Of a stretch of 64,000 nucleotides of DNA, positions 2,350 to 61,069 are shown in pieces. The position numbers were made by a program, and so were the translations under genes. The notes beneath the pieces are model-generated. The model ran no database searches. It saw nothing but the letters and a program-made list of their open reading frames with translations, and was not told the DNA's origin. Source of the stretch: Phorcus lineatus (taxonomy: Eukaryota > Mollusca > Gastropoda > Trochida > Trochidae); assembly GCA_921293015.1 (NCBI GenBank), contig OV121084.1, positions 54,423,864-54,487,863 on the forward strand, given 5' to 3'. Every line of letters starts with the position of its first letter. Positions within the stretch are counted from its first letter, which is position 1.

Positions 2350-3830
2350 CATGTGATTTAAACATATTTTATTCATGAAAGAATACATGAACTGATTGGC
2401 CAACAAGCTCCGAAGAGCTTATTTTAAGGCCGCTCCAATACAACTTCATTTATACAGATATACAAACAGATGTTAGAGTTACGTCAAATCATATTTCAAA
2501 TTCAAAGATATATACAGTGATAATTCATGTCTACAAATTTGGCAGTCATTATACTAAAGTGTGATTAAGAAAATTTTAAATCGATCGGATTTAGTGATAT
2601 AATTATGAATAGACTTCAATAATAAAGTTTGTTCATTGATTGTGAGCGATGGACATCCTCGTCGTACCGGGTTGATAGAAAAAAATTTCGAATAGAAGAA
2701 TGATTGATTTCTTAAGTCTATGTACTTTTGGCATGTGAAAAAATATTGTACTGCATTTTCGATCGGGTGGCCGCATGAGCACGCAGGGCTGTCAATGATG
2801 TGTCTGTTAAATTTATCGGCATTCAAATCACTACAGTGGAGCCTGAGGCGAGAATGGATAATCTGACTAATTCTTATCCCAAAATTAAGATCGAAGATAA
2901 TAGTTGTATTTTTAGGTCCACTAGTCGAATATTTTAAACCGGATAATGTCTCATCTGTTTCTGATGTCGGGAGTTAAAGAATTCCATAAGTTTATTATAT
3001 CGGGTAAAAACGACCTGGATTACGTCGCCGTTCTACATTTCATAGTTCGCACGGTTGAGTTTTCTCTAAGGTTATATTCATTTGTACTAGGCGTAGTTGG
3101 TATGAGATTACACAGATATTCAGGCGCAAGATTATTCTTCATTTTATAAAAAGTAATCAGTTTAGATATTTTCCTTCGTTCTGTCAAAGATTTCATATAT
3201 GTTTCTTCGTAAAGTCCGCTAAGACTTGTTCCGCGAACTGCTCCACAAATGGATCTTAACGCATCTAGATTAAATTTTTCTAACAAAGTGCATTGGTCTT
3301 GAGTGCAGTTATCCCAAATATGGCCACACGAGTAAAAAATTTTTAAGATGAATGATTTATGTATAATTTCTAAACTTTTACGTGGCAGGCGATATTTTAG
3401 ACTTCTTCAACAATTAATCAAAGGACTAACTTTCTTGATCAAAGTGTTTATATGGTTATCCCAGTAACAGTTATTTTAGAGGGTTAAGCCTAGGTGCTTT
3501 AGGCTTTCGACTTCTTGAATTATTTCACCGTTGATAGTAAGATTAGGTTAGATGCTCCTATTTACTTTTCTGCTAAAGTGTATTGATTCAGTTTTTAAGG
3601 ATTAAATGAAACCTTCCATTTTTTGCCCAGGTTGAAATCAATGATAGGTCATTATTTAAGCAGTTTGCAAATGTATAGGAGTCCTCGATTATTACATATA
3701 AGGAAGTGTCATCTGCAAAAAGTCTGATATTACTGTCTATGTTATCTACAATTACATTCAGAGGCGTAACTATACCTTGTAGCACAAAAAGCAAGTGCTT
3801 ACACTTTGAAGTTCAATAAAAGCATTGAGA
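2350..3830 (-). pseudogene. Degenerate non-LTR retrotransposon, 3' half of reverse transcriptase (CR1/jockey-like)
   Basis: Read on the minus strand, three broken frames line up as one reverse transcriptase C-terminal half. At 3794-3588 there is a palm segment with the catalytic FADD box (RLFADDTSLY). From about 3590 to 3290 shifted frames give INGEIIQEVESLKHLG, and 3286-3020 gives the typical thumb segment (LTERRKISKLITFYKM). At 2826-2554 comes a C-terminal CSCGHPIENAVQYFFTC zinc-knuckle-like motif. Frameshifts and stops separate the blocks. The endonuclease and N-terminal RT are missing, as expected for a 5'-truncated insertion. The limits are approximate and clade assignment is by motif style only. 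Confidence 0.8.
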
Positions 3831-3959
3831 ATAATCGTCATATAGTCTAGATGTACACAGTATTTGCCGTTTCTTGAATAAATGTTTCTCTAAAATATTA
3901 CGGCTGACAGTCGTCAAAACGCACAGTATGGGAGGAGCTGTTCAGTGAGTCAGCTCATA

Positions 3960-4480
3960 TGTCAAACAAATATGACAATATTCCTTCCAAGCCCAGATGT
4001 ATGAGCCGTCAAACAATGCGCGACAATGCCCCAGCATCCACACCTTAAAATACGGAAAGAGGAATCTGTTCCACCCTTTGCTTGATCACATGGCTCAGCA
4101 ATTAGAAGACAGACTTGTCTGTCCAAATGGCTAATTCAAAGCCAAGTTTTTCTGCCTACTTTGATCCATAACATTGCAGATGAGATGGGTATTATACCAT
4201 TTAGCCTATTCGGTGAGCTTAACGAGAACCCACATTAGCAACAAGCAGTTGAGATCAGACGATGGCTTAACGTTGGCAAGATGTTCCTGAAGAGAAGAAA
4301 CCATCTGGACGTCGCAAAAGAGGATCTCTATCCTAATTTTCATGTTGCTTTAAAAAGAAATGGTAACGGAACGGCTAAATGTGCTCACACTTCTTTATGT
4401 CCACAGAGATTTTGATGTCAATTTTGATAAGGTAGTGGGTGATTTCGTAGAGGGAAAAACACGCTAAATGGCTCTTTTCT
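3960..4480 (+). pseudogene. Decayed hAT-type transposase fragment
   Basis: In shifting plus-strand frames the sequence reads MSRQTMRDNAPASTP, then KRNLFHPLLDHMAQQLEDRL, and near the end RLNVLTLLYVHRDFDVNFDK. These match the style of the C-terminal part of hAT-superfamily (ZMYM/SCAND3-like) transposases, including the end of the dimerisation domain. Stops, frameshifts and a deletion of the expected ERSFS-type block make it non-functional. Recognition is by eye; a translated search would settle the subfamily. Confidence 0.6.
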
Positions 4481-5253
4481 TCAAGTGAAGCTGATATTCA
4501 AAGAATTTCACAGTTTAATTGTCTTGTTTTTCTTCCTTTGACAACGTTCTTGTATTTCTGAGAGTTCTGGTTTATTGTTCGTCGGATCATTGGACGTTTC
4601 AATGATTAATGTTTAAAAGTAGTTACAAGTCATTGCGTTAATCTCACCATAGATAACTTTGATGGTATCTTTTCATTTGAATGGTGTGATGTTTAAGTCA
4701 GTTCGGTTTATCACATCCTTAAGCTGTGCTTACAACTGAAAATTTCCTAGTTACACCCCTGTCATTTATATATATAATGAAGAACAAAGATCCCAAAGTT
4801 AGGCTGTATCTGTATGTCTAGTATGTTAATACATGTAAATCAATAGTTTTTGGTGACTACATGCATGGATCTTAATATACACTGTCATATGTTTCATACG
4901 GAAAAAAGTTTTGAACATATACATAGGTCAAATCAAAGACGCATAGGTCTATGGTCAAATTCTTGGGTCAAATAGAATCGGCGCACAGCATAAACATGAA
5001 ATTTGATAAACTTATATATAATTTTTTTATCATTTGCAGTACATTAAAACATCTTCGCTTTGACGTTAATCTTTCCGTCAATCGTTATTGGCGATGTCAG
5101 CGAATTCGTTCCTACAGTTTGTGGCCGAAATTCAGGAAATATTCTTTATTGGCAATAATGGCGGGAATGGGGAAGAAACTTATTGCTTAATACTGCAAAA
5201 AAAACTAAAAAAACAATAAACGTTATGGTAACAGTAGTATATTGCATGCATTG
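4481..5253. other. Intergenic stretch, no supported gene
   Basis: AT-rich sequence between the hAT fragment and the inverted repeats. The short open frame at 4951-5190 has no recognisable motif. Nothing else is supported. Confidence 0.5.
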
Positions 5254-6683: not shown

Positions 6684-8098
6684 ATGAAGAGTGAAGAAAG
6701 CGACAGTTGCGTGTTTTGTAAGGCCAGGTGTGGCGGGAGACAGCAAGTTCTTCAGTGTGACGTGTGTTCCAGGTGGCAGCACAGGAAATGCAATACAGGT
6801 AACGATAATTGACCTTAGAAATCTTGCATTCCATTTTGCTGTATGTGCTTAATCTGCATGTATCAAATAGTATACGCAAGTTACATAATGTTCAAGGAAT
6901 CTAATTAGTTCATAAAATCTTACGTCGTCACAAGTAAGAAGACGCGAAAGACCACTACGGAAAACCTTTAAATGCAATATAGAGGAATACACAATATGTC
7001 GACTGCTGATTGAAGGAGGTTCGTCACATGGGTCTTTTTTTTGCACAGGTTCAATCTTTCAAACAATAAATGAACGTTCAGAAAATGGTGGATCGTTCCA
7101 AGAAAGTAACATCAAAATACCACGCAGTGTCCCTCTTCTCTCATGTGATTTCCACTAATAAAATAAATTTAAAAACAATTGCAGGTATAAGCCAGACGAC
7201 CTACCGGAAAATGAAGAAGGGTTTGGCGGCATTGGATGCCTGGAGGTGCTTTGTTTGTTCCTTGATATCCTCCGCTAAGCATTCAACGGGAGGTGTACAA
7301 GATTTGAAAGCTTCATCTAAGCAATCAAAGAAAAGGGCTGTAGGTTTGAAAGATCTAGTCGACCTTGGGTCCCGACCAGCTGCTTCATCTAATCAATCAA
7401 AGAAAAGTGCTGTTGATTGGGAAGATCTAGTCGACCTTGGTTCACGACCAGCTGCTTCATCTAGCCAATCAAAGAAAGGGGCTGTAGATTGGGACGATCT
7501 AGTCGACCTTGATTCACAATTCCAACCAGCTGCTTCATCTAAGCAATCAAAGAAAAGGGCTGTTGATTGGGAAGATCTAGTCGACCTTGGGTCACGACCA
7601 GCTGCTTCATCTAAGCACTCAAAGAAAAGGGCTGTTGATTGTAGATCCAAACACTCTTCGGAGAGCGGTATAAATTTTGAAGATATAGTCGACCTTGGGT
7701 CACGACCAGCTGCTTCATCTAAGCACTCAAAGAAAAGGGCTGTTGATTGTAGATCCAAACACTCTTCGGAGAGCGGTATAAATTTTGAAGATATAGTCGA
7801 CCTTGGGTCACGACCAGCTGCTTCATCTAAGCACTCAAAGAAAAGGGCTGTTGACTGTAGATCCAAACACTCTACGGAGAGCGGTATAAATTTTGAAGAT
7901 ATAGTCGACCTTGGGTCACGACCAGCTGCTTCATCTAAGCACTCAAAGAAAAGGGCTGTTGACTGTAGATCCAAACACTCTACGGAGAGCGGTATAAATT
8001 TTGAAGATATAGTCGTAGATCAAAGCGACTGTTGTAGTTATGGAAAATGTAGAGACTGCATAGAAATCTGGCTGGATAACGTGCAATACGCTAGCTAA
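6684..8098 (+). CDS. PHD-finger protein with internal tandem repeats (two exons)
   Basis: Exons 6684-6798 and 7185-8098 join in phase (GT donor at 6799, polyA-rich tract and CAG acceptor at 7182-7184), giving 342 residues. Residues 9-63 form a C4HC3 PHD-type zinc finger: CVFC, QCDVC, H33, C36 and a closing WRCFVC. The splice joins the two halves of the finger, which strongly supports the model. From about residue 82 the protein is tandem repeats of a basic SSKxSKKRAVD segment followed by an acidic FEDIVDLGSRPAA segment: four short units (24-26 aa), then four long units (36 aa; the last diverges). The tail is Cys-rich (DCCSYGKCRDC). PHD fingers usually read histone tails. Similar fingers also occur in lineage-specific mollusc families, sometimes with transposase domains, so domestication is possible. 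Function unknown. The start is the only ATG upstream of the finger in this exon. Confidence 0.75.
7312..8010 (+). repeat. Coding minisatellite within the PHD-finger gene
   Basis: Four units of 72-78 bp are followed by 108-bp units, each starting near TCATCTAAGCA and holding GATATAGTCGACC. The 108-bp copies are nearly identical at the nucleotide level (for example TCTTCGGAG versus TCTACGGAG), which indicates recent expansion or homogenisation. Unit lengths are multiples of three, so copy-number change keeps the frame. Confidence 0.9.
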
Positions 8099-18786: not shown

Positions 18787-19534
18787 TTTATATGTTACCA
18801 TCACTTCCTCTTTTGAATTCTGTCGCCATACCCAAGAAAAAGAAAACAGCTGCCGAATTATTCTCAAGATAATTAAAATAAATAACATTTAGAAACGAAT
18901 AAATCAATAATCTTAAGCAAATGGGCATTCTAATTGTAAAATCACATATCAAGCCAGGGTTTCATTTTAGGCGGAGATAGTTCCTAAACTGTTGTTAGGC
19001 TACTTCCGGAATTAAAAGCAAGGTCACTTTATGAATGTAAGATGTAAACTGTAGATGCCCAATGAACGTCAAACTTGGTTTCCCCAATAGTTTTATTTGT
19101 GCTGCTAACCTATGGGAATTCATTGCTAACATGATTCGAAAAGTATTTAGTGGATTCTATTTTATATTTAGATAAATTTTCTGAAAAGCAAAATTGCATC
19201 ACTTTATAGCTGGTGTGCTGAGCTGTTTTCGGAATGCAAACAACGAAAGACTTAAATATTATGAAAATAACTTAATGGTTTATTTTGGAGATTTGTTTTC
19301 TCAGGAGTCAGTTTCCTCTTTAGATATTGCTTATCTATGAAAAAAATGTCAATGCAGAGTTGTGGAAAATCGCCATTGGTTGTACAATGAATAATTCTAA
19401 ATGCTTCTAGAATTTAATGAGATTTTTTGTCACCATAGTTAGCAACTATCTTTTTACACGATTAGCTGATTTACTGGCATGAATATTTAAGAAATAACAC
19501 CTTATTCTTAAACTCATTTACCAGAAGTGGAAAA
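18787..19534. other. Divergent spacer between NAA30 and COA6
   Basis: The two genes are head to head, with start codons 903 bp apart. The spacer should hold both promoters and 5' UTRs. Apart from the NRF-1-like palindrome on the NAA30 side I see no TATA box or other clear element. Confidence 0.5.
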
Positions 19535-20082
19535 ATGTCCGCTCCAAATGCTGGTGAGAGGAAAAAGTGTTGGGCTGCAAGAGATGAATACTGGGAATGC
19601 CTTGAAAAATCAAAAGACAGCAAAGAAAGCTGTTTAAAGAGTCGGAAGCTTTTTGAGGCTAATTGTACAAAGGCTTGGGTAATAAGTTATAATATTTTTA
19701 ATATAAATACAAATCAAAGATATAGAGTTGGAAAAGTAACTTTTTTTTAGTTTTTAGCATATGCATGAAAAGGCTATAAGGAACTATACCATAACATTGA
19801 AATTCTTTGAATGAAGAACTTGGGTTTTTATCAAATCCATTACTTTATAACCTTAACAAGTGCTAGAATGCCACTCAAAAGTTGTAGGACATTAACATGA
19901 ATTTTTTTATTGTGTTTTGTAAAATGAAATAAGTGTCTAGATTTTGAAACTTATTTTATGTGATGAATATGTTTTTATATTTTCAGGTGAAATATTTTGA
20001 CAGGCGTCGAGACTATTTGAAATATAAAGAAAAAATTGAAAAGGAAGGTTATGATCCAATTGATGACAAGAAGGCAATGTGA
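19535..20082 (+). CDS. COA6: Cytochrome c oxidase assembly factor 6
   Basis: Exons 19535-19678 and 19987-20082 join in phase 0 (TGG|GTAATA donor, TTTTCAG acceptor), giving 79 residues, the usual size. The twin-Cys pattern of the CHCH fold is intact: Cys12 and Cys22 (CX9C), Cys33 and Cys44 (CX10C), the spacing typical of COA6. Conserved blocks ARDEYWECL and KAWVKYFDRRRDYLKYK flank the splice site. The protein acts in the mitochondrial intermembrane space, where it helps deliver copper to the CuA site of COX2 with SCO1/SCO2. The longer unspliced frame running to about 19750 is intron read-through. Confidence 0.95.
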
Positions 20083-36100: not shown

Positions 36101-37429
36101 GGTAATGAAGCGGTGCATAAAACAGCAATTATGTAACCAAAACTTTTTTTTATCAGAAATGATAGATTTATTGATCTGCAAAAGAGTATATAAAATGCCC
36201 TGACAAATCCGTTTATTCCAATCAAGGAGACGGAAGGTTACAATCAATACATATGGAAAAGTTCCATATCAGAAGTCACTGAATATTAGAACGCTAACTT
36301 ATAGTCGCTTTGATGTCAAGATGTAAATAATATTGGTAGAAGAGCTTTTTGAACGTTGATGTGAAAATTGAATAACATTCAAGTAGGGATCGATTTATTT
36401 TGATATGGTATATAACTTGGCTTTGTCTTCCTATGACTGTAGTTTTCTCTTTAACGATTTCTAAAGAAAAGTTATTCCTGAGATTTGTGGGATATATGTA
36501 TATACGTTTATAGATGTCTGACATTGAGGACGATGAATTTAGACCCTTATATAAAAGGTTCCGGGGATATGTATTAATGAGTGACGATTTAATTAATTAA
36601 TGATCACACTTTACATAGCTTCGAAGGATTTTAAAGATAAATTGATTAAATTATGAGACCAGAAATTGCGTTGAACGGTTGCATTTTGAATATAAGTACA
36701 GGGAAAATTGACGCTTGGTGTCGAAGGCGGTTTCCATTTTGGATTTCGCATACTGTGTCATCGTTGGTTTTTTTCGCAAAATATGTCATGCGTTTTCGTA
36801 ATTGTTTTTATATATAAGCCCTGTTCATAATTATTTTCAGAAATCCGTTAAGAATAATAAATTCGAGTAGAGCATGTTTGTATTAGGCAAAGCGTCATTT
36901 GATTTAAAATAACAATTGACAGTAAGTCATTTAATGAAAATTGACTATGATTTCAGGTTTCTACTCAGAGCACTGGATAGGAAACGACAACCTGCACTAT
37001 TTGACCAATCAAAAGCATTACAGCCTTAAAGTAGTTCTTGAAGACTTCTCATTCAACAGTACGTTCGCCGTGTACGACCATTTCTGGATTGACAATGAAG
37101 ACGAGGGATATCGGCTCCACATCAGCGGGTACAGTGGGACAGCGGGGGATGGTTTCGCTAAACATAATAAGATGAAGTTCAGTACTAAAGACGCCGACAA
37201 CGATCTTATTACTAAGGAACTGGAGGAATACGACCACAGTTGCGCCAAGAGGTTTACCGGAGCGTGGTGGTACTACAAATGTTACATGTCAAATTTGACA
37301 GGACATTATTTTAAAAATGGCCATGTTCCAAATAAAAAGTTTAATGGAATTTCCTGGAAACCATGGAAGAAGCCACACATATCACTCAAAGGTGCAGTAA
37401 TGATGATACGTCCTTTCAACGCTGATTGA
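30110..37429 (+). CDS. Secreted fibrinogen-related protein with acidic repeat and coiled-coil region
   Basis: Exons 30110-30180, 31523-34839, 35046-35231 and 36957-37429 join in phase and encode about 1,348 residues. Exon 1 is a signal peptide (hydrophobic WLLIVVF; cleavage expected near residue 24). Exon 2 encodes a short two-Cys segment (KCNVKMWYLDL), an Asp/Glu/Lys/Ser-rich region (about 100-460) with seven-residue GSE(S/A)SDK repeats at about 295-360, a Glu/Lys-rich charged helix (460-600), a predicted coiled coil (about 676-886, with many N-glycosylation sequons) and a Ser/Glu/Lys linker. Exons 3-4 encode a full fibrinogen C-terminal domain (about 1130-1346): four Cys, GFGGFYSEHWIGNDN, SGYSGTAGD, Ca-site DADND and FTGAWWYYKCYMSN. 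Such domains bind acetylated sugars or receptors in ficolins, FREPs and angiopoietins. The acidic N-terminus is unlike these. Roles in immunity or in mineral or matrix binding are both inference. Confidence 0.85.
32338..32530 (+). repeat. 21-bp coding tandem repeat (GSE-S/A-SDK)
   Basis: About nine copies of a 21-bp unit (GGCTCAGAATCATCAGACAAA and variants), three of them identical at protein level (GSEASDK). The unit is a multiple of three, so length variation stays in frame. Confidence 0.9.
34212..34346 (+). other. Candidate in-frame intron (exitron) inside exon 2 of the fibrinogen-domain gene
   Basis: GAT|GTGAGA at 34212 and TTTCTCAG|GAA at 34346 enclose 135 nt (45 codons, no stop), starting and ending in phase 0. 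The encoded segment is Cys-, aromatic- and Pro-rich (CVFYSLILSPCPPF), unlike the charged sequence on either side. Removing it joins SPDAD to EDEIHQ smoothly and gives a protein of about 1,303 residues. Confidence 0.65.
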
Positions 37430-44682: not shown

Positions 44683-47600
44683 ATGGTGAAGGGTGGACCA
44701 GAGTTTATTAAGAGACTGCCAAGATTTCTGCGCCATGAAGACATACCGACAGATACCTTTACACCTAGGACATACCAGGTATGCATTTTACATTTCTGAC
44801 TAAACGTTTTATTTCAATGTAGCTGATACATACCTTTGCTCAAAAAGTAAACTGATCAGCCTTGAATATGCATTGATTGAAAGTCAAAGTCTTCTATAGA
44901 CCGATCCAGTCTGTCAATCAAACCTCGCGCATGCGTAATTTCAGCCAATCAGAGCGGCGATAGCGCCACGCTAATTTGTCAACTTTACTTCCGGGGACAA
45001 ACAATGGCGATATGTTTCGGTGGTTGCACGTATTATTAACAGTAAATTTCTGTGATTCTACACACTTTTTATTCATCGATGTCACGGCATATGTATTTCT
45101 TGAGGTGTTAGGTAACTAGGATTATCGTTTTTAATCGACGAATTTGTGAAAAATTGGCAACAATTAGGAAAAACCAATCGCGAGTCGGATGAGTGCTCGG
45201 AGGTGAGAAATTGCAAGAATTGTACACTTTTCAAAGTGCTCTAAGATAATTCTAACAAGGTGACAGCTCTAAAAAGCTTTTCACAATGTCACTTTATGAC
45301 CTCAAGGTTTTAAATCAAGAACCCTTTTAATTTGGTTAAGATTAATTTTTTGCGATTTTACCTGATATAACATTTGGGTAAGTTTCCTGTCAAGTTTTGT
45401 CATATTGTAAACAAACAGTGTTGTGCAAAATATCTCATTAAACTATGATTTGAAAATAAAAATATAAACCAACTCAGTCACGGGATATGATTCTATATGA
45501 TACTTTATCACATATTATCTTTCCAAGAATCATGCTCCAGGTGGTAATTAATAAATGTATGTAATAATCAAGCAAACTGTCTCATGAGTTTTCATGAATA
45601 TAAAACTAGATAAATCAAAACTAAAAAAATAATAATTCCTTTCAGAGTTTTACTGAAAATGACATGATGCATTTGAATCAACTTTAATCATGAAGGATTT
45701 GTATGTAACAAGGGATATATTTACACAAATAATAATATAATAAATGAATAAGTTTAATCTTGAAATAATATATAATAATATAATTTCACAAAAGAAACTT
45801 GTTGCAGCTAAAACATCCATTGACTGATAAATATTATTTTCCCAATCCAGTTACTATCTTTGTCATTTTGAAACCTGGAAAAAATAAACAACCATTATTT
45901 CATGAAGATTGATTAATTTCAGTAGATTCATCAAAAAAGGAAAATTAAACACAACAGCATATATATGTTATGTGAAGTGTGATTTCCTCTTTCTTGATAT
46001 ATCGCCTCACTTAACTTATGTACCACTTATTCAGTTTTGTAATCTGTTAACAATTTTTATTAAAAATTCCAAATACATTTCAATGAGAGGCTGTATCTTT
46101 TAAAATTAAAAAGTATGCTATTTTCATCTTTTCTCTTTGGCCTATAAAATAATTTAATTGGATATCTAAAATATCAGTTGGATATGTTTTTTCATAATTT
46201 CTTATATTCATTTACTGTTTATATTTTGATGACTACTTTTTGTTTAAGACTATTTCAAATATTTGGCTCTCAACCTCAACCTCAATTACTTATAGTTATT
46301 TCTGTTTGTGATTTCAACATAAACATTGAGGAATAAATAGACAAGTTTATACACAGCCTGTTGTATATATTTGTGAACTTTGACTAACTGCAACCCTTTA
46401 ATTTCCTCAAAAAAAAAGCTAATGAAACGTTGATGCAACTTTGATTGATATTTTATCGATATATTTCTTATGAATTAATAATATTTTTGCACAATAAAAT
46501 CTTTGGTCAACGTTCATAATCAACGCATAGACAGTAAAACAAATCAAGTTTTGACAATGCATTTTTGAATATTTTTGTCAAAGGAATGTTGACTAGCCCT
46601 GAGACCAATGAGCGTAACACTGACAGTGTCAACAAGCTTGAGACCTTGACCTATACAACTACGTACAAAAAACAATATTCAATTAATTATCATACGAAGC
46701 TTTTTCAATATAAAATGACCTACACGTATTAAGTATAAGTGAGATACAACAATTTACTAGTAATAGTATGTTTTCTAACTTTACAATCATGTAGATTGTA
46801 GAATCACTTTCAGTGAAGGTGTTTGTTTACAAAGTGGCCGAGCTTGATCAATCGCTCTGTGATTTCATGAAATTACTTCATGAATATTTAAGAATAAAGA
46901 ATTATGAATGTTATATGGGTTTTACAAATACAAAGTAGGAAAATGAGCGTGTAGAACGACGTCGGTGAAAACGAAAGCCAAATGTTTTGGTTAGTAACAT
47001 TGTTGAGTTACGCGGTCCAGCTCGCCTGAGCTTGAAACTTGTCCCCCCAAATATTTCAGCCAATCACGTTTTAGGGGGCGGGGCCTAATGGCTCTCGACT
47101 GGATCGGTCTATTATGGCTAAAACACCATGTTATGATTCTGGGGATTTGTGAAATTACATCAAAAATAAAAAGTTGATTTTTTGAAAGTTTTTGTCCCAA
47201 TATGTGTGCAATGAATTGGAACATGTGTGGAAGTAAGATTGCTATGAAAACTCAAGAAAAAAAGAACATTACAATCACTTAGCATTTAGATGAAAGCATT
47301 AAAACGTTTGATGTCAATTATTTGCATCTCATGATGTTTTAACTTTTCATCTTCATGTACCATTAGTTGTCTCCATATACTTACACTGTTACCATGGTAT
47401 TACTGTAAAGAAAGCCTACATATAGCTATGGAAAGTTAAATCCAAATTTTGACAAACTTCAAAATGGCTTCTCTGAATACCATCCATAACCAAAAAACCT
47501 GTCAATTGTCAAAAGTAGAAATATCATATCAAGAAGTGTTGTGTCCATAGAATGAGTCATTCTTAGTAACTCACAAGAACTCTATTATCATATTTCTGAC

Positions 47601-50600
47601 TTTTTGAAAGCCTTGTTTGATGCTGGAAAGCTTGATTTGTAGGTTTCTTACAAATACTCAGGGATTGACCATGGTAAAGTTTTAGGCATAACTGATGTGT
47701 AAGATTCAGATAGTGTTTCCCCTAGGTTGGAAAAAGGGCAGGGCAAATTGATTTAGAAAAGGGCACCACTCCTTACAAAAGGGCACTTAAATACAAATTC
47801 ATTTGAAGGTATGTTTCATTGTTAAATGAAACTGGGTCTAAAATATATTTGATAAATCTTACGAATAAATTCAGAAAAAAACATCACATTTATTCTTTCC
47901 AATTTTAAATGAGTTACGGATATCAAACATGTGCATTTCATTCATTACATCAAGTGAGATCATTCGGCTGTGTCCGCCCGTAATCTCCCTATTGTTCCTG
48001 TATCTAGCTAAACATGTGGTTAGCAGCTGTGTCCCAGTGACACAAAGGATGGATCGTTAGTTTAATCATTCCCTTCTTTTGTTTCTTTGTCTTGTAGATC
48101 CTTATATCATAGCAAAATTGAGCTCTTCATCCGTAGGTATCTTAAGTAAAATACAATTGCGACATTGTAAATGATTACATTGTACATGATATATTCTGCA
48201 ATAGGGCAACAGGAAAATTTGGACTAGCAACTGGGAAAAGGGCAGGGCGGGACAGAAAAAGGGCAGGGCGCATATTCAAAAGGGCAGGGCGTTGCGCCCT
48301 GCTAAAACTGACTAGGGGAAACACTATCAGATGTCAAGGCTATTAATAACAATGACTATTTGTTATGTTTCTGGACTCGAGTTTAATTGCTCTACATCAA
48401 TGTCATAATATCCTTATCAGAACAAGCATGAAGGCCTTTATTGATAGAATTATTTTGGTCCTAGGTGGAGCTGCTTGATGCAGCGCTGCACAGAAACACT
48501 CTCATCTGCCTGGGCAGCAGTTCTAGCAAAGCCTTCATCTCCCTCATGGTCATCAAAGAACTTTCCCATAAAATCAGGATGGCATTCGACGAGGGCGGAA
48601 AGAGGACCATATACCTTGTGGTATCAGGTAAGTGGCTACAGCTACTACTACATAATCAATTATTTATAAATTTGAATATTTATGCCCTAGATGTACTAAC
48701 CAAATGAAAGTATAACAACACTTTCTATTTTGTAAAAACTTTACCTTGATAAAAAGCAAACATACAAAGTTTTAAACTTACTGGTTACAATGTGCCTTAC
48801 TTAGTCCCTGCAAATAAGATGTATTTCTTATTTTTTTGCGGAATGAATGTTTTAAGAATTATATAAACATGATAATGTGTATGTTATGAACGTTTAAAGA
48901 AGTAGAGAATTGTTATCTTATTTCGAAAATACTGAGACTTTTTTTTTCTGCAGATCTTGCGGCTGATGTTGAATGGCAGATTCTACAACACCACACAGAC
49001 CTGAGAGTAGGAAAATATTCTTCAGATACTGGAACAGAGGACTGGAACAAACAGAAATGGTTGGAGGAGCTGAAAGAACAACAGATCCTAGTCATGGTTG
49101 CCGATGTTTTCCGCATTGCTATAGAAAATCAGTTCTTGCCTGTGGAAACTTTGAACCTGGTAGTGTTTGATGACTGTCACTTAGCTGTAGGAGATAATGA
49201 CTATGTTCATATCATGAAACACCTCAGCCCTGGAGAAGATCAACCCCGACCTCAGATTCTAGGCCTTACTGCTTCCGTTTTGAGTAGTCGATGTAACGAC
49301 CCTCAACAACTCCGCGAAGTGATCACATCCTTAGAAACTATGTTACATTCCAGAGCAGAAACTTCCATGCTAGTGATCTCAGAAAGATATGGGTCCCGTC
49401 CAAAGGAGATTTTGTATGAATGTGAAACTAAAGAACCTTTGGAGGTTACTCTTAAATTAAAGGCAATTCTAGAAAGTGCTCTTTTGTTTTTGTATGAAAT
49501 TCAAATCAGTGAAGAGGAATGTGGAAAGAAAGATCCAAGGCAAATTCCAAAAAATGCATTGTCAGAATGTCACAATATACTTCTGAGGCTGGGGCCTTGG
49601 TGTGCTGCTAGAATAGCAGACATGTTAGTCAATCAAATTGATAAATCTGAAAAAGCCGAGACCAACCCTCTTCCCAAAAGACTTCTTCGATTCACGTCTA
49701 CCCAGTTGAGATATATAAACAAAGTCTTTGACAAAGCCTTCACTCCGGACTATATTGTTGATGAGTTTCTTGAATACACCACTCCCAAGGTAGTGCAACT
49801 TGTGGATATTCTTAGAAAATACAAGCCGGATTTAGATTTCATGATCATTAGTAACGAGGACAATAGTATGTCTGACGAGTCGGATATGTCAGATGATTCG
49901 ATGGATCTCTCAGACTCTGATGAAGAAGAGGGAAGTCCAGGATCAAAGTCTCACAAACAAATTCACATTGCCGTTAAAAGAAGCATGGATGGATTTGACG
50001 AACAACCTGCAACAAGTATCCTCGGACCCGATGAAAAGAAGTTGGTCGGAATTGTGTTTGTAGAGCAGAGGTACGTTGCTTTTGCTCTCAATAAACTCAT
50101 TGAGGAGGTTTGTGGTTGGGATGAAAATTTGTGCTTTATCAAGAGTAACCATTTAACAGGGCTGGGATGGAAGAGTGGAAAAATGAAGAAGGATTCAAGA
50201 TCGTTTCGGAAACAGGAAGAAACGTTACGGAAGTTTCGAATGCAGGAGTTGAATCTGCTTGTATCAACTAGTGTTCTCGAAGAGGGAGTCGATATACCCA
50301 AGTGTAATTTGGTTGTCAGATTCGATTCTCCGAAAGACTATAGATCATATACGCTGTCTAAGGTAAGACTGTGATTAAGAATTAATGACGTTGATATAGG
50401 ATAGGAATATTTTTTTATGTATAAAGATTAAACAAGACATCAAGCTTCAATCTAGCCTTTTAATTTTCCCAATTTTTAAACTTCTCTTTAAAAAATGGTC
50501 TTAGTGATCTGCAATCTTGTGAATAGATGGCTTAGCTGCATCTTAGCCAAAAGAGTTTATTACTTTCAGATTTTGTTATGTTTTGTCTCTTAAAGGGCCA

Positions 50601-53600
50601 CTAGAAGAACTGCCCAAGGTTTTGTTTTTTTAATTCTCAAGAGGAAATTATGCAATTTAGATTTGCCAATAATATGATTGAAGCCCTAGATAAGCTATTA
50701 TTCCTTGGCAGATTGGGATAATCAAATGTAGACTTAGTGACACTCTGATGATTTTTAAGTCTGGAATAATTCTGTTATGTTTCAATTCTTTTCCAACATT
50801 TATCTTCTTGTGTTATCAAAATCAAATATATTTACTCAAAAATTCTTCATGTTTACAGGGCAGAGCACGAGCAAGGGATGCTGAGTACATAATACTTGTT
50901 GAAAAAAACAAGAAAGACACCTTCGTTGAAGAGTTGCAGATTTTCAAAGGCATTGAAGAGGTAATTGATGGGAATTTCATAGAATATCAAAAATACCAAT
51001 GACGTAATTAGAAGTTTGTGTTCCTCGGTCTATTGATCAAGAACAGTGAGTATTCATCAACTGTCTAAAATCGGTGTCATGTGTTCATTATTGATGTAAA
51101 AAGAAATTAGCACTAGATTGTTGTTAAACAGTGGGCCAGGTAACTCTTTAATGTTTAAGTTCTAAGGGAATTATTTTTATTGAAAGTGACTCCTTATTGT
51201 CAGCAATTTTATCCAAGGTTTTGATCGGTGACGGAAGAGGTCGGAAAGACCTAGCTGAAGAAGATGACCTTGACCCCAGTGTTGTGGTTGACATGCTTCC
51301 TGCATACAGTCCGTCAGACAACCCTCTTGCTCTCAAGGTCACCATGCAGACTGCTATAGCTTTGGTCAACAGGTAAATATGACTGGCATGTGATACCAAT
51401 ACTTTAGCTAACTCTTAACTTTCTACAGGTGTTTGTTGGCTCCATTTATAGGTTACGTTTATTTTCTATGTTTCTTCCTTATTGTTGACTACCAAAGGCA
51501 GGGAATAACTCTTGACTACCTGAGGTCATTTGTTCTCACTACCGGTAACTGTCTTACAGGGTTTCCTGTCTTGAACGTACCGGGATAGCTCTCTATTATT
51601 TTAGAATTTGTCCAAATAAAATGTTATTGGCATGATGAGTGAGAGCATTACAGGCTATCCATAAGGCCTGAGTTTGAGAAACTACCTTATAAAGTGCCAT
51701 GTTTCAAAAACAACTGAGAATCATTAATTTAATCTCAATTAAAATAATATCTATTTTATCAATTTAACATTAGGCAAATTAATATCAGTATTATAATTGG
51801 TGGGTTGACTTGTCTATGTCTTCTTTAGCCAGTGGTCAGTCCTTGCTAATATGTTGTCATTACTGTAAACTGGTCACTCAGAATATTTAAGCACTGATCG
51901 GAATCATAGTGAAAGGTTGTTGGGTTATTTTGGTGGAAGCAATTTTTTTAAAAATGGCAACTCCTTTAAAAGTCTTCTACTTTTCCAGATATTGTGCAAA
52001 GCTGCCCAGTGATGCGTTCACTCACCTAACGCCCCACTGTTCCGTGAAGGAAGTGACCGACACTCAACCCCAGCAGTTTGTTGCTTCTCTTCGCCTTCCG
52101 GTCAACTCCTCCATCAAAGAGGAAATAGCTGTAAGATTTGTAGATTTTCAGTTTATTCATTAAGTTTTTTTTGTGGACTTTCGTTTCCCTACATCAGACC
52201 ATCTTGCTTTGCCTGATGCTTACTGTTAACCTGGACTGCTTATCAAATGATAATGTGACATAGTTGAAATAAACAAATTTCCTAACTCTTTTCCCAGGGT
52301 GTGCCCATGCCTTCCAAGAAGCTTGCTAAGATGGCTGTCGCTTTGAAGATGTGTGAAATGTTGCACAAAGCAGGTAAATTTTGATAAATGATAAAAAGAT
52401 ATGAAAAAAATAATAAAAGATTATTGTTGCACAAAAAAACCCATTTAGGCCAGGGTCATACACATAACTCTTCAACATAACAAACATTTATTACTCTCCC
52501 CTGTAAGATACTGCAGTGTAATATTTATACGGTGATATCAGACTAGTGTAATACCGCTGCACGTATGACGTCATTATATTGTGTGGTTATGACGTCACAA
52601 TGTTGGCACCGCCGTCACAATGGCGGCCAAGTCGCGGAAATGTTTAGTTCAGTACACTTTCGGCATTCATGCTTGATTACTAAGTAATAAACAGAATACT
52701 AAAATCACTAATGATTTGGTATCAAACTCACTTTCGCTCGTTTTATAGGGTATCATTAACTCGTTTAATAAAAATAGTATTAAATGGAAGGTAGTTTAGT
52801 ATCCTCTATATCCTACACTAAGCCAAATGGACAATACGTATATGAGTGTATGACATGGTTAATTTATGTGTTTATGACAGTGTCAGTTTATGTATATGAC
52901 ATCACCCGTATACATGTAAGACATCACAAGTATACATTCATGACATAATCAGTTTATGTGTATGACATCATCAGTTTATGTGTATGCCCACAGGGGAGTT
53001 GGATGACAACCTGATGCCGGTGGGGAAGGAGATGTTTGTGTACGAGGAGGAAGAGGAGTGGGAGGAGGAGGATGTGACGGGACAAGCGCGACCCGGGACC
53101 ACCAAGAGGAAGCAGTACTACTACAAGAAGGTTCTTGTCTCTCTTTTGCCTTTGTCAAATGCTCACAGAATGTTATAAGTAATATGTAACTTTACTCAAG
53201 TTTTTTAAGGGATTAAAGAAGCGGAATATTTGGGAAAATCAAGATTCCTTGATAGCAAATTTTGAACATGAACATTCTTCTGTTTTAATTTTGCAGTTGT
53301 ATCTTTGGATAAAATGCATGTAATTCAATCCTGGGGGTAATATGTTCCTGTTTCCATATACAGAAGTCCTCTCACCATTTGACATCAAGTAGCTTAAGGT
53401 GTATAGCCATAGTAATAGTCTTCGTTCTTCATCACTTATCCTTCTGCCAATAAACAATATCAAGTTAGGAATTTTTTTATTAATGACTTTACAGGCAGAT
53501 TTGATGTATTAAAGAGATAATTTTACTTAGGTTATTGGTATCTGTTTTTAATCCTTTTTGTCTTGTTTTAGGCAGCAGATGCATTTGTAAAAAGCCACGT

Positions 53601-56600
53601 GACTGCAGATCGACCATGTTTCCTCTACTTTATCAACCTCAAGCTGACTGGACCAATCACTGACGAGCAGAACACTCGTGGGAGACGCATCTACGCGCCT
53701 GAAGACACAGGACAGTCACTCGGAATATTATCTTCTAAAGAAATTCCTCTGGTATTGTGTTTTATCATTAGATCAAATAGTTTTAATCAGGAGTCAGAAC
53801 TAACTTTACTTCATTCTTGCTGCAGTGTGTCACGAGTAGCTCATTCATTTCTAATACCCGTTCGTCTTGTGACAGGCAGCAGGTTTAGATAATATAGCTT
53901 CAATCAGGAGTCACATCTAACTTTACTTCATTCTTGCTGCAGTGTGTCACGAGTAGCTCATTCAATTCTAATACCCGTTCGTCTTGTGACAGGCAGCAGG
54001 TATAGATAATATAGCTTCAATCAGGAGTCACATCTAACTTTACTTCATTCTTGCTGCAGTGTGTCACGAGTAGCTCATTCAATTCTAATACCCGTTCGTC
54101 TTGTGACAGGCAGCAGGTTTAGATAATATAGCTTCAATCAGGAGTCACATCTAACTTTACTTCATTCTTGCTGCAGTGTGTCACGAGTAGCTCATTCAAT
54201 TCTAATACCCGTTCGTCTTGTGACAGGCAGCAGGTTTAGATAATATAGCTTCAATCAGGAGTCACATCTAACTTTACTTCATTCTTGCTGCAGTGTGTCA
54301 CGAGTAGCTCATTCAATTCTAATACCCGTTCGTCTTGTGACAGGCAGCAGGTATAGATAATATAGCTTCAATCAGGAGTCACATCTAACTTTACTTCATT
54401 CTTGCTGCAGTGTGTCACGAGTAGCTCATTCAATTCTAATACCCGTTCGTCTTGTGACAAGCAGCAGGTATAGATAATATAGCTTCAATTAGGAGTCCGA
54501 CCTATCTTTACTTCATTCTTGCTGCAGTGTGTTCCGCTCTCTGCGCCAGCTCTTCAACAAGCTGTGCCCTAACTTGATAATCAAGTTCGAAAGGTTACTC
54601 ACAATTGCCATTAAAGTTGCTGCTGTCAAACTAGCAATTGTTGCATACTACAGCAAGGCTTAGATTAAGCAATGATTGAGTCTAGCGAAACTTATGCCTT
54701 ACCTGGGAATAAACATATGTGGTAATATATTCACTGTCATTATTAAGAGCACTATACATCAATCAATCATGTTTAACCAATGCTTTGTATGGCAGGTGCC
54801 CTGTTTCCCAGTGTACACAAGATCAGGGGAGGTAACTGTGTCAGTTGACTTGTTAGAGGCGGGGCTCACATTCAGCAGCGAGAAACTGACTCAGCTTGAA
54901 AAGTTTCATCAGTTTGTGTTCACCAGCGTACTTCATCTCGAGAAAGATCCTATGGAGTTCTTCAAAACCAATGCAGAAGTGGGTTATCTCATCGTTCCTC
55001 TTGATAAAAGTGAGTTAAACTGCTAGATATTAATTTGTTGCCATGGCTCAATGTTCTGGGATTGCTTATCTTTAGCCAGTGGTAAAAGTTTGATAAGACC
55101 CTTTGTAAACAATATGTGATTCCTGTAGATTGGCTCCTCAGAATGGCTTCTCAGAATGTTTGGCACTACTTCATTCAGCAGCTGTAGTGTTATTCATTGA
55201 GTATCAATAACAGTTTTCATTATGGAGGTCAGAGTGATAGGATGTTAAGGGTAAAGTTATATTAATTTGTTAAATGATGTAATTTAAATCTTCTTAATGT
55301 TATCCTGTATGCTTCGTTTTATTGAATAAAGTTCTTTGTGAAATGATCTTTCTCAAATAACAATTACTGGAAAGTATTTTACTCATAAAATTCAATTTAT
55401 TCATTCTGTCAGAGATACTGAATCACTTCACAGAGTAATTTTAGTCCTGTTTGATATCTATCATAAATTTTTAATCTGTTGCCAAGTGTTTGTTGTGATT
55501 GTGATGTTTAAGTAAAAAGTATATATTTGACAGAAACATCTGCTGAAAGTGGTCATGGAATTCAGTGGGACTTTGTGGAATTGGTGGAAAGGTCAGCAAA
55601 ACCAGAGAAGAAAAATGTGTTTGACAAGAAGAGAGACATATTTGAGTTTCGCAAAGAAGACTTTGCCGACGCTGTTGTAATGCCTTCATATCGTAACATA
55701 GATCAGCCACAACATTTCTATGTTGCTGAAATCCGTTTTGATCTAAATCCTTTGAGTCCCTTTCCATCTCCAGAGTTGTATAAGACATTCAATGAGTACT
55801 ACACCACAAAGTATGGCCTCATCATCACAAACCCTGACCAGCCACTTTTGGATGTGGATCACACATCTGCTCGCCTCAATCTTCTCACTCCACGTTATAT
55901 GAACCAGAAGGGCGTTGCTTTGCCGACTAGCAGCGCAGAAACAAAGAGAGCTCGACGAGAAAATCTTCAGCAGAAGCAGATTTTGGTTCCAGAGTTGTGC
56001 GACATTCATGTTTTCCCAGCCTCTCTCTGGCGCAAAGCTGTCTGCCTCCCAGCTGTCCTGTACAGGATGAACTACCTCCTCCTCGCGGAAGAAATCAGGA
56101 AAAGGATTGCTCAGGAAACTGGCATTGGTGTCATGGAATTACCTCAGGATTTTAGATTCCCTCAGTTAGATTTTGGATTTGAAACCAATCCAGAAAAGCT
56201 GAAATGTGAGTCAGAAGAAAATCAAGCTGATCAGGAAGACAAGGATGAAAGTACAGAAGATGGAAGTTCTCGTAAATCTAGTCAACAGTCCACAGTGAAA
56301 GACAGTCCAGCAGAGGCTTCCAATGATTCTAATCTCAAATCAGGGGAGGATAAAGGCGAGATGTCGTCTGACAGTGATTCAGGAATAGCTTCAGCAGGTT
56401 CTGAAGTCAGTGTGGCAGATATAAGTGCTCAGTCCAAGTCTGATGTCAGTGGAGACACTCCTGTAGGCACAGACGGTGTCACAGTTGACAGAAAACAATC
56501 TGAGTCTAGCACTATTAGTATATCAAGTATAGAAAATAGCTCTGATTCTAGATCTCACATGCTGGATATTAGTTCTGAAGAACCCTCTGACATTGTCATG

Positions 56601-59600
56601 GAAACCGTTTGTGAATCTGAAGACCTTGAATCAAACTCTATGCAGATCAGTAAAAGCCAAAACAGTGAAGATTCACAAGCATCTGGTGCTGAATCCGACC
56701 TCAACTCCAAGAAGAAAGATACCCAGTGGTGCTCAAGAAGTGCTAGCAATGCAACAGTCTCATCCGACGCACACATCTCCCTAGTGCCAGAGTCTCATCC
56801 TTCAAGTCAAACCAGCTCTGTGCTCAAAACATTGCCTAGTCTTCATTCATCTTCCTCACTCAGTGATGGAAAAATCATAATACATGATCAAAATGTAGAA
56901 TCAAATGAACGGTGCTCATCATTATCACATGCTCATTCCATAATGGAAACATCTGATGCTCCAAAACAAGTTGCCAAACCTGAAGTGTCAGTCAGTGCAA
57001 GCTCAGAAGCTGTTTCAGAGAAGCAGACGGATAGTAAATCTCATTCTATTATTTCAAAGACTTGTTGCCATGGTCACTCTGCTCTTGAAGACAAGAACCC
57101 TGAGATCTCAGAAATGCAAAAATCTATTCCAAGTTCCTCACTGGAAATGAGTCCAAGTGAGACATCCAAACCAACCCTTGACTCATCCAGCAAGTGTCCA
57201 TCTGCTCCTAAGGACACTGCTCAATCCTCAGATGCAATCCAGTCCACTACAACTCAAAGTGACCTTGTTAGCAAATCAGTACAAACCACACAAGGGATAT
57301 GTGCAAATCCTTCTCAAACCTCTCCAGAGCAAACAGAACCAAAAGTCAAATCTGGATGGGATGGAGAATCTTCCAGAGAGAATCTCCCAGATAGGCAGCA
57401 AAGCAAAGTACCTGGATCAAACCCCAGCTGTGATAATCCTTCTCTAGGGTCTTTTGGGAACAATTGTAGCAATTCTGACACTGTCACTGGCAGCAAAAAG
57501 GACTGTGTTGTTAGTAGTGTCAGTGATGCCAAAGGAGATAATACCAGTGATGTCAATGAGGTCACTGATGGCATCAATGCTGTCAAAGGTGACATTTCTG
57601 TAGATGTCAAAGTCGGTGACGTCAATGACAGTGTCCAGGGTGATGTAACCGACGCTGACTTTGGTGTTTGGGGAGCCGCGGATGGTTCCGGTGAGGACAG
57701 TGATACTTCCTCGGCAACTGATGAAGAGGAAGTGGATGTGACCTCGCTACATCCGAACATCAGCCTGGATGAGGACCGGGACCTCAACACCTTCGTGGGA
57801 CCAAGCCCTTGTCTCATCCTTCAGGCTCTCACCATGTCCAATGCAAACGACTTCTTCAGCTTGGAGCGACTTGAGACCATTGGTGACTCCTTCCTCAAGT
57901 ATGCCATCACTGTGTACCTGTACTGCTCTTATCCCGGTATCCACGAAGGCAAGCTGAGTTACCTGAGGAGCAAACAGGTCAGCAACTATAATCTCTACCG
58001 TCTCGGCAGGAAGAAGCGCCTAGCTGAATGCATGGTATCCGCCAAGTTTGAGCCTTACGAGAACTGGCTACCTCCTGGTTACATCATCAACGAGAACAAA
58101 CGAAGAGGTCCGGTACCCAAAGTCATCATCGCTAACACTGGGAGGAAGGTAGGGGGTGTTGCAAGGAAATTAGTTGATAATCAAGTATCAAAGTCAGAGA
58201 CAAAATCTCAAAGTGCCATGTTAGACACAGTGGAAGTATGTACAAGACTCAATGGCATTCATAAAACTGAAAAAAGTGAAATGTCAGACAACGTTTCTCA
58301 AAATGTAAGTGACAGGCCCGTCGATGAAATATCTTCACCTAGCAAGAAACGTGTTAGCTCAGATAAAGAAAGGGCAGAAGGGGACCAGGAAGATATGGAT
58401 AACTCATTGTGTGTCACAGAAGAAGGTACATGTGCTGTCAAAACTGATGTAGAGAGACTGAAGTTTGATCAAGAACTGGAAGAGATTGATCTGATCCAGG
58501 AAATCGATAAGATTGAGGACCTGACGGATGTAAGTCAAGCCCTTGTGCCCTACAGTCTGCAGACTCAACACGGCATCCCGGACAAGAGCGTGGCTGACTG
58601 CGTGGAGGCTCTGATTGGCTGCTACCTCACTACGTGCGGCAAGAAGGGGGCGCTGATGTTCATGTCCTGGCTGGGACTCAAGGTGCTGCCTCGGAAGGAC
58701 AAACTGGAGGGAGTCCCAAGGAAGGAGGGACAACAGGTGGGCTTTTAGTTTCATTCTCAGTTTTAATTGAACCTATTGATGGTTGTACTGTAAGACCCTC
58801 TAGTGAAATGCTGCTGTTGGTGATTGTATGTAGTTACCAAGCTCGACTTGCTTGGATTCTTTAGTTTTATTGAAATGCTTACTGTTATGATAACAGTGTT
58901 ATCCCTTGCCCTGGTATCAGTTTAAGGACCTGCAGTCATTGGTCAATCTATTTTCTATAAATCTGAATATCCTCTATGTTCAGATAATGAGTTGACTCAT
59001 ATGATTGTGTTTGATATTATAATCTATCAATAAAAAGATTGCTTTGTCAGTAACTAGACATATGGAAAAACTTTTTAATATCTTTCAGTCACTACTCAAT
59101 GGTATAAACATTGAATTTGCTGAGAAAAGACTGATATCTAAATATTACTACTTTCACCTTAAAGGTGAGTGAATACGAGTTTGCAGAGCTGCAGTGTCCG
59201 CCCTCACCGCTGCTGCTGACAGGAGACGCGCGCCCCGCCCACATGTTGGAGCACCTGCTGGATGGGTACTGTGTGTTTGAGGAGAAGATCGGATACTCCT
59301 TCCAGGACCGCTCCTACCTTCTACAGGCCTTCACACACGCCTCCTACCACTACAACACCATCACCGACTGCTACCAGAGGTACGTCTTGTAAACAACGTC
59401 ATGCAGCAATGGTGTCTCATGTAATGTTGATGTTTGATATGAAATATCTTGACAAGGATTGGCCTCTCATTATTTTAAACACCATCACCAACTGCTATTA
59501 TTTTTGTAATTGTAGAAGAAGTACAGGTGTTTGGTTTTGGATAAATAGAAAGTACAACTTATTTAAATAACCCCTTTTATGCCACTCGTGTCCCTCACCA

Positions 59601-61069
59601 ATCATGTGTTAATAATAATGTTAAGTCTTTACTCAATATCATTGCAGACTGGAGTTTCTTGGAGATGCCATCTTGGATTACGTGATCACCCGTCACCTGT
59701 ACGAGGACTCCCAGAAGTATTCGCCAGGCATCCTGACAGACTTGCGTTCAGCACTGGTCAACAACAACATCTTCGCTGCTCTTGCAGTCAAGTGGGACTT
59801 CCATAAGTACTTCAAATCTATCTCACCTGCACTCTTTCACGTCATCGAGAAGTTTGTGGCTAGACAGAAGGAGAAGGAGGATGAAATTGATGTAGAGGAT
59901 GAGGTAAGCAAATAGTTATCTGCAAACAATTGTTATAGAAGTTGTTCATCCATTATTGTTGAATTGTTGATGATGTCATAAAAAAACCCCCAAAAAAACG
60001 TGATAGATTTGTCCCTTTAGCCAGACTGGTGAGATTACTAAAAGTCTTTCGTCTGACAGTTCCAGGATCTGGAGGAGGAGGACGATGACGGAGATGCGGA
60101 GGAGGAGGTGGAGCTAGAGATTCCCAAAGCCCTCGGAGACATCTTTGAGTCAGTTGCTGGTGCCATCTACCTTGACAGTGGGATGTCCCTTGACACTGTC
60201 TGGCGCGTCTACTACCGCATCATGAGGCCACAGATTGGTGAGTTTATCTTCCGTTACATTTTCTCACTACGGGGCTACTCAAGTCATTTCTTCCCAGTTG
60301 AGATGGAGCATTTTGTGGACTAGAGCAACAGAATCCTGATTTGTTGCTTTCACAGTTAATGGACTAGAAATACAGAATACTGATGGCTTGCAACGCAGTT
60401 AGTAAAGCGAACAGTAAGGTTGTTTCAGTTTGTGTATCATCAACTTCCTGCAAAAATCAAACTGACAGACCACCTTTAAAGTTGATCAACAATTGGCGAC
60501 TATTTTAGGCAATGTTTAAGACATTGCAAACCAGATGGTTTGTCTTCAAGTGACTAAATTTGCTCAATGCATGTTGCTACAGGTTATTTATGTTACTACT
60601 TTCTATATCTTGCTCATGTGAATTATTTTTCCTCCCTTTCAGAGAAGTATCTAAAGAGTATACCAAAATCACCTGTCAGGGAGCTTTTGGAGCTTGAACC
60701 AGAGACCGCCAAATTTGAGTAAGTATTATTTGTTAAATGTTTGCCTTATTATAAAATCTTAAGATATCATACAAACTTCAATCTAACTTCAAAGTTTTGC
60801 TACAAAAGTAGAGGGAATGATTTTTTTTATTTTAGAATTATTGAATTTGGCGTTCCTAAACATATCTCACCTTATCATAATGTAAACATACCTGTGTTAT
60901 CCTCAGGAAACCAGAGCGTACGATGGACGGAAAGATCCGAGTGACGGTGAATGTTGTGGGGAAGGGTGTCTTCAGCGGTGTTGGCCGCAACTACAGAATT
61001 GCTAAAAGTGCTGCAGCTAAGAAAGCCTTGCGAATCATCCGCTCTATGCAAGTGGGAAGTCTTGAGTAG
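44683..61069 (+). CDS. DICER1: Dicer ribonuclease, 16 exons, with degraded helicase ATP-binding motifs
   Basis: Exons: 44683-44778, 48465-48627, 48954-50362, 50859-50960, 51218-51372, 51989-52130, 52298-52373, 52994-53130, 53572-53751, 54796-55009, 55534-58736, 59165-59379, 59648-59903, 60060-60237, 60643-60718 and 60907-61069. All are GT-AG and phase-consistent, giving 2,254 residues. Order: helicase (about 30-600), DUF283/dimerisation (642-740), platform-PAZ (760-1040), Ser-rich insert (about 1110-1630), RNase IIIa (1640-1930, interrupted by an acidic loop), RNase IIIb (2000-2170) and dsRBD (2180-2250). RNase III acidic residues are present in both domains (RLETIGDSF and [17 protein letters not shown] and GDIFESVAG). 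Walker A reads [10 protein letters not shown] (Lys54 kept, Gly and Thr lost) and motif II is DDCH (159-162). Motif III LGLTAS and SKGRARAR remain. It cuts pre-miRNA or dsRNA into ~22-nt duplexes. Exon 14 could start at 60066 instead. Confidence 0.96.
44897..47111. mobile_element. 2.2-kb non-autonomous DNA transposon in Dicer intron 1
   Basis: TAGACCGATCCAGTC at 44897-44911 is matched exactly, inverted, by GACTGGATCGGTCTA at 47097-47111. Both ends also carry TTTCAGCCAATCA in the same direction (about 44939 and 47056). No transposase frame is visible. The target duplication is not clear; a TA or longer AT motif is possible. Confidence 0.8.
47711..48326. mobile_element. 616-bp hAT-like MITE in Dicer intron 1
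   Basis: The ends are perfect inverted repeats TAGTGTTTCCCCTAG / CTAGGGGAAACACTA, the style of hAT termini. TCAGA flanks both sides (47706-47710 and 48327-48331) as a 5-bp target duplication. Subterminal copies of AAAGGGCAGGGC occur once intact near the left end (plus shorter AAAGGGCAC variants) and three more times near the right, as expected for transposase-binding repeats. Confidence 0.85.
52852..52985. repeat. Degenerate TTATGTGTATGACATCA tandem repeat in Dicer intron 7
   Basis: Several imperfect units of (CAGT)TTATGTGTATGACATCA run right up to the acceptor of exon 8 at 52994. The array lacks a long pyrimidine tract, so exon 8 has a weak-looking acceptor context. Confidence 0.65.
53780..54540 (+). 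repeat. 117-bp minisatellite in Dicer intron 9
   Basis: Six nearly identical 117-bp units plus a diverged last half. Each unit has CTTCATTCTTGCTGCAG (acceptor-like), 57 nt without a stop in phase 0, then GCAGCAG|GTATAG or GTTTAG (donor-like). Pseudo-exons fall at 53826-53882, 53943-53999, 54060-54116, 54177-54233, 54294-54350 and 54411-54467. The array lies between exons 9 and 10, both bordered in phase 0. Confidence 0.9.

Follow-up and report, generated by a model that had tools for sequence, protein, structure and literature searches.

A Dicer-1-type Dicer of Phorcus lineatus, likely the only one of its genome, with altered ATP-site motifs in the helicase

A single complete Dicer gene was found in the 64,000-nt window of the Phorcus lineatus genome analysed here (the window being the whole of this stretch of DNA), and all three motifs of the helicase ATP site (I, II and VI) were altered in it. 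On the sequence evidence the product is very probably a Dicer-1-type enzyme and the only Dicer of the animal, with a helicase that serves as an ATP-independent scaffold instead of a motor, and without an efficient siRNA route.

Gene structure and helicase motifs

Open frames, splice signals and alignment were used to model the gene as 16 exons on the forward strand (44683-61069; Table 1), with the stop codon at 61069. The start lies at least at 44683, the N-terminus beyond the first ATG being uncertain in this model, and the acceptor of exon 11 is ambiguous (55513 or 55534). The reading frame ran through 2262 codons, stop included, without interruption, and 15 of the 15 modelled introns were GT/AG. 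According to Pfam, the domain order was helicase, partner-binding domain (111 bits), Dicer_dimer (92 bits), platform (189 bits), PAZ (63 bits), two RNase III domains (64 and 86 bits) and Dicer dsRBD (165 bits); the DEAD match of the helicase was marginal (26.7 bits for a cut-off of 26). Catalytic blocks were present in both RNase III domains, with residues that we take to be the catalytic acids, and RNase IIIb could be aligned to human Dicer. With an open frame and strong domains the gene does not look like a pseudogene, as the initial annotation had already held. Its further statement that the remainder of the protein was intact held for the partner-binding, platform, PAZ, RNase III and dsRNA-binding domains, but not for the helicase, where motif VI was altered and motifs Ia and Ib were weakly kept.

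The linker between the PAZ motif YRN and the RNase IIIa motif LERLE comprised 724 residues, while that of human Dicer has about 376, and the added length is Ser-rich and acidic. A tandem repeat occupied part of the intron between exons 9 and 10, and three further features of the window are also included in Table 1; the COX6B-family exon among them is presumably COA6-like.

Table 1. Exons of the P. lineatus Dicer gene and other features of the window
Feature	Position	Strand	Content
Dicer exon 1	44683-44778	+	First ATG, Q-motif FTPRTYQ; open frame, GT donor, human Dicer alignment from query residue 18
Dicer exon 2	48465-48627	+	Motif I region; LGSSSSKAF (48510-48536) replaces the GSGKT-type P-loop
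Dicer exon 3	48954-50362	+	Motifs Ia, Ib, II (DDCH, 49169-49180) and III (LTAS, 49265-49276), partner-binding domain, motifs IV and V (50267-50326)
Dicer exon 3 (continued)	within 48954-50362	+	Beginning of motif VI, Leu for Gln
Dicer exon 4	50859-50960	+	Remainder of motif VI (GRARARD)
Dicer exons 5-7	51218-51372, 51989-52130, 52298-52373	+	Dicer_dimer (DUF283); genome match to PF03368
Dicer exons 8-10	52994-53130, 53572-53751, 54796-55009	+	Platform domain
Dicer exon 11	55513-58736	+	PAZ and RNase IIIa (catalytic blocks 57861-57899, 58581-58619), joined by a long linker rich in acidic residues and Ser
Dicer exons 12-14	59165-59379, 59648-59903, 60060-60237	+	RNase IIIb including catalytic blocks
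Dicer exons 15-16	60643-60718, 60907-61069	+	dsRNA-binding domain, stop codon
Tandem repeat	53768-54532		117-bp unit, 6.5 copies, 97% matches
342-aa open frame	7070-8098		Largely repeated 108- and 72-bp units; only two Pfam matches, both below cut-off; opposite strand also open over 208 aa
COX6B-family exon	19466-19750		56 bits
Fibrinogen_C domain exon	36938-37429		141 bits

The phmmer alignment with human Dicer (415 bits) placed LGSSSSKAF on LNTGSGKTF and DDCH on DECH. The P-loop is therefore at this site and not in another part of the protein. The loss of the GSGKT-type P-loop proposed initially was thus borne out, as both glycines and the Thr of GSGKT were absent and the Lys (Lys 54) was retained, and so was the replacement of DECH by DDCH; the remark that the glycines do not survive is correct for the two of GSGKT, although one Gly is present where human Dicer has Asn (LG vs. 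LN). Both motifs lie inside the region 48465-49200 to which they had been assigned, but an intron (48628-48953) is contained in it. Motif VI read LSKGRARA vs. QSKGRARA in human Dicer, with loss of the Gln. Identities to human Dicer amounted to 5/7 in motif Q, 4/9 in I, 2/12 in Ia, 3/9 in Ib, 7/8 in II, 7/7 in III, 7/9 in IV, 18/20 in V and 8/10 in VI. The greatest change therefore occurred in motifs I, Ia and Ib, with motif III (including LTAS) wholly and motif V nearly unchanged. The signature of ATP-dependent Dicers (the type of fly Dcr-2 and C. elegans DCR-1), with GSGKT and DECH both intact, was absent in the comparison with human Dicer and fly Dcr-2.

No uninterrupted GxGK[ST] motif appeared in the six frames of positions 20000-64000, a scan that an intron-split motif would escape. 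When the 54 residues encoded by the P-loop exon were searched against the genome, their single match at E 1 or better was the exon itself; a close second copy was therefore not seen, and a strongly diverged one could escape this query.

Comparison with named Dicers

Bit scores placed the P. lineatus protein with the Dicer-1 type, nearer to Dicer-1 and vertebrate Dicer than to arthropod Dicer-2. The helicase scored 415 bits with human Dicer, 203 with fly Dcr-1 and 139 with Dcr-2; the PAZ region 266, 274 and 53 bits, and the C-terminal region 404, 363 and 161 bits, respectively. Human/mouse Dicer was the top PDB scorer for both the helicase and the RNase IIIb/dsRBD region. These scores, together with the degraded ATPase motifs and the intact cutting domains, support the miRNA-type assignment first made for this gene.

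The parallel drawn with Drosophila Dicer-1 was also confirmed. The sequence of PDB 8dfv presents CLGHRSSKEF and EDCH, that is, a motif I likewise degraded with a surviving Lys, and both proteins have CLG..SSK.F and an Asp for Glu at the second position of motif II. They differ in motif III, which is changed in fly Dcr-1 (LGLAGP) and kept in P. lineatus (LGLTAS). Drosophila Dicer-1 is described as the miRNA type with a degenerated helicase in the part of PMC9645528 drawn on here, and the fly additionally has a Dicer-2 with YLPTGSGKTF and DECH (PDB 6bu9). Human Dicer, unlike that of P. lineatus, retains GSGKT and DECH; human/mouse Dicer is described as ATP-independent in the relevant section of PMC10159624. 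Over the motif stretch, identity was 65/152 to human Dicer, 47/142 to Dcr-1 and 42/152 to Dcr-2. Since identity was higher to the human protein than to Dcr-1, the motif letters common to P. lineatus Dicer and Dcr-1 are not due to overall closeness and may represent convergence.

Searches of the genome for a second Dicer and for other dsRNA helicases

One consequence first suggested for the altered motifs was a second Dicer whose P-loop is intact. None was found in the whole genome (957.8 Mb in 74 contigs), either with the RNase III, Dicer_dimer, helicase, PAZ and platform queries or with the P-loop exon; searches were made exon by exon and the best candidates alone were scored. The RNase III query gave three matches (four candidates scored), two in Dicer and one on contig C39 that we take to be Drosha. 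The Dicer_dimer query (PF03368) matched the Dicer gene once. With PAZ, six matches were obtained at E 0.1 or better, four of them above the cut-off, corresponding to Dicer and to others near Piwi matches on C2 and C15. The platform query yielded four matches at E 1 or better, two above the cut-off, both in Dicer; those on C12 (E 0.047, with one stop) and C25 (E 0.82) fell below the curated cut-off and were rejected. At E 1 or better the helicase exon retrieved itself and 12 weak matches, 13 in all. Seven of the weak ones were no more than 1.5 kb away from a RIG-I_C-RD match, two belonged to a zinc-finger helicase on C37 and one was at C13:14697703; of the remainder, that on C5 was by its look a DEAD-box protein and that on C19, with four stops, had nothing telling. 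The exon-wise approach has known misses, as Drosha gave one partial RNase III match and the AGO-like gene on C1, found with the Piwi query, was missed with PAZ; for this reason the P. lineatus gene is likely, but not proven, to be the sole Dicer of the genome. An intron-rich, fast-evolving second Dicer escaping all five markers is unlikely.

The Piwi query produced 18 exon matches in four places, read by eye as four genes, one AGO-like (C1) and three PIWI-like. The RIG-I C-terminal domain (RIG-I_C-RD) was matched nine times, five on C13 and four on C15, some of them clustered; loci such as L017, L018, L022, L032 and L033 indicated the presence of several RIG-I-like receptors.

Exons that look like a single gene for a stand-alone zinc-finger helicase were observed on C37 at about 41.042-41.051 Mb (L030:6329-10000; L020:1-285, from about 499, and 3773-5125). 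A 1224-aa open frame carries at least eight zf-met-type fingers (eight scored), which also match the dsRNA-binding JAZ model, and is followed by a helicase in which the ATPase motifs are intact, namely PTGTGKT, split by an intron, and DEAH. In the PDB this helicase scored best against AncD1D2, a reconstructed Dicer helicase (108 bits). RNase III, Dicer_dimer and PAZ gave no match on C37. One narrow literature search retrieved no zinc-finger Dicer-like helicase in print.

Use of ATP, alternative readings and published context

ATP-driven threading of dsRNA depends on the ATP site formed by motifs I, II and VI of SF2 helicases, and the residues lost here from these motifs contact ATP, Mg or water in such enzymes. 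Motifs II and VI are treated as parts of the Dicer ATP site in the relevant section of PMC10159624. With all three motifs altered, the P. lineatus Dicer would not use ATP, as judged from its sequence. The ends of pre-miRNAs would be anchored in PAZ and platform, the helicase fold would hold a TARBP2/Loqs-type partner and check the pre-miRNA, and cutting would proceed without ATP. Long dsRNA would not be diced processively, so that an efficient siRNA route would be missing, dsRNA sensing being probably left to RIG-I-like helicases.

A helicase that still binds or slowly hydrolyses ATP through a non-canonical P-loop seems quite improbable, although residual binding is conceivable because Lys 54 survives, DDCH has two acids, and LTAS of motif III and motif V are conserved. 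A 2024 paper (PMC11658451, in the part consulted) considers the human Dicer helicase domain capable of ATP hydrolysis, so that this ability is disputed even for intact motifs. Against residual activity stands the loss of the GSGKT glycines and Thr, of the Glu of motif II and of the Gln of motif VI. By analogy, the ATP-driven work on long dsRNA might be supplied in trans, by a RIG-I-like receptor or the C37 helicase cooperating with Dicer, as DRH-1 does in C. elegans according to the portion of PMC11095941 used here. The nine RIG-I_C-RD matches and the AncD1D2 match, intact motifs and zinc fingers of the C37 gene favour such cooperation, but the role of these helicases may be confined to innate sensing; overall we regard cooperation in trans as very unlikely. 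An artefact, be it an assembly error, a pseudogene or a mis-aligned exon, is extremely improbable in view of the open frame over 16 GT/AG-spliced exons, the high domain scores and the lack of a close second copy of the P-loop exon in the assembly; moreover, the same DDCH is published for other species in the motif II data of PMC11114477.

A different question is whether the ATPase was lost here and in arthropod Dicer-1 by a single event, before the arthropod/lophotrochozoan split. In favour of such an event, motif I has CLGxxSSKxF and motif II an Asp instead of Glu in both proteins. An intact DECH is, however, recorded for brachiopods, phoronids and nematodes in the cited part of PMC11114477, which argues against a single event, and it appears unlikely. 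If it were true, the intact DECH of these three groups would reflect a different history of those genes.

An ATP-independent Dicer-1 in P. lineatus would be a further case of a type already described, since the same kind of loss is published for molluscs, annelids and fly Dicer-1. The sections of PMC11114477 consulted report DDCH in motif II of most Annelida and Gastropoda and of Mercenaria mercenaria, and other changes in oysters, scallops, Biomphalaria and cephalopods. There, helicase and PAZ of DICER1 are annotated in all Mollusca species surveyed, the helicase is called 'likely inactive' in Mollusca and Annelida, and DICER2 was not detected in Trochozoa, both phyla included; P. lineatus resembles the species with DDCH in this motif and in a DICER1 probably unaccompanied by DICER2. 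According to a passage of PMC10159624, 'degenerate ATPase motifs' occur in some mollusc Dicers. A single Dicer-1-like transcript in the dog whelk and in earthworms is reported in part of PMC6085071, and the mussel Dicer is given as a single gene in an extract of PMC4793324.

Loss or bypass of the siRNA route is the reading that we favour from these sequences, and it fits the single AGO-like gene and the published surveys, as far as the portions consulted go (PMC11114477, PMC6085071). A mollusc without Dicer-2 may still have antiviral small RNAs, because virus-derived RNAs of 26-30 nt, not of the Dicer type, are abundant in the dog whelk; the authors interpreted this pattern as divergent but active antiviral RNAi (PMC6085071, same portion). 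The words 'Walker' and 'P-loop' do not occur in the main text of PMC11114477, and narrow literature searches for the Dicer P-loop in bivalves and for the Dicer ATPase in Lottia or annelids retrieved nothing. What is added here is the spelling of the P-loop and its likeness to that of fly Dcr-1, together with a stand-alone zinc-finger helicase whose ATPase motifs are intact and nine C-terminal domains of the RIG-I-like kind.

With motif I spelled out, the P. lineatus gene adds a complete genomic example to the published idea that trochozoans keep a single Dicer whose helicase is non-catalytic and may depend on other dsRNA sensors. The motif letters given here also offer a concrete test of whether the motor of protostome Dicer-1 was lost once or many times.
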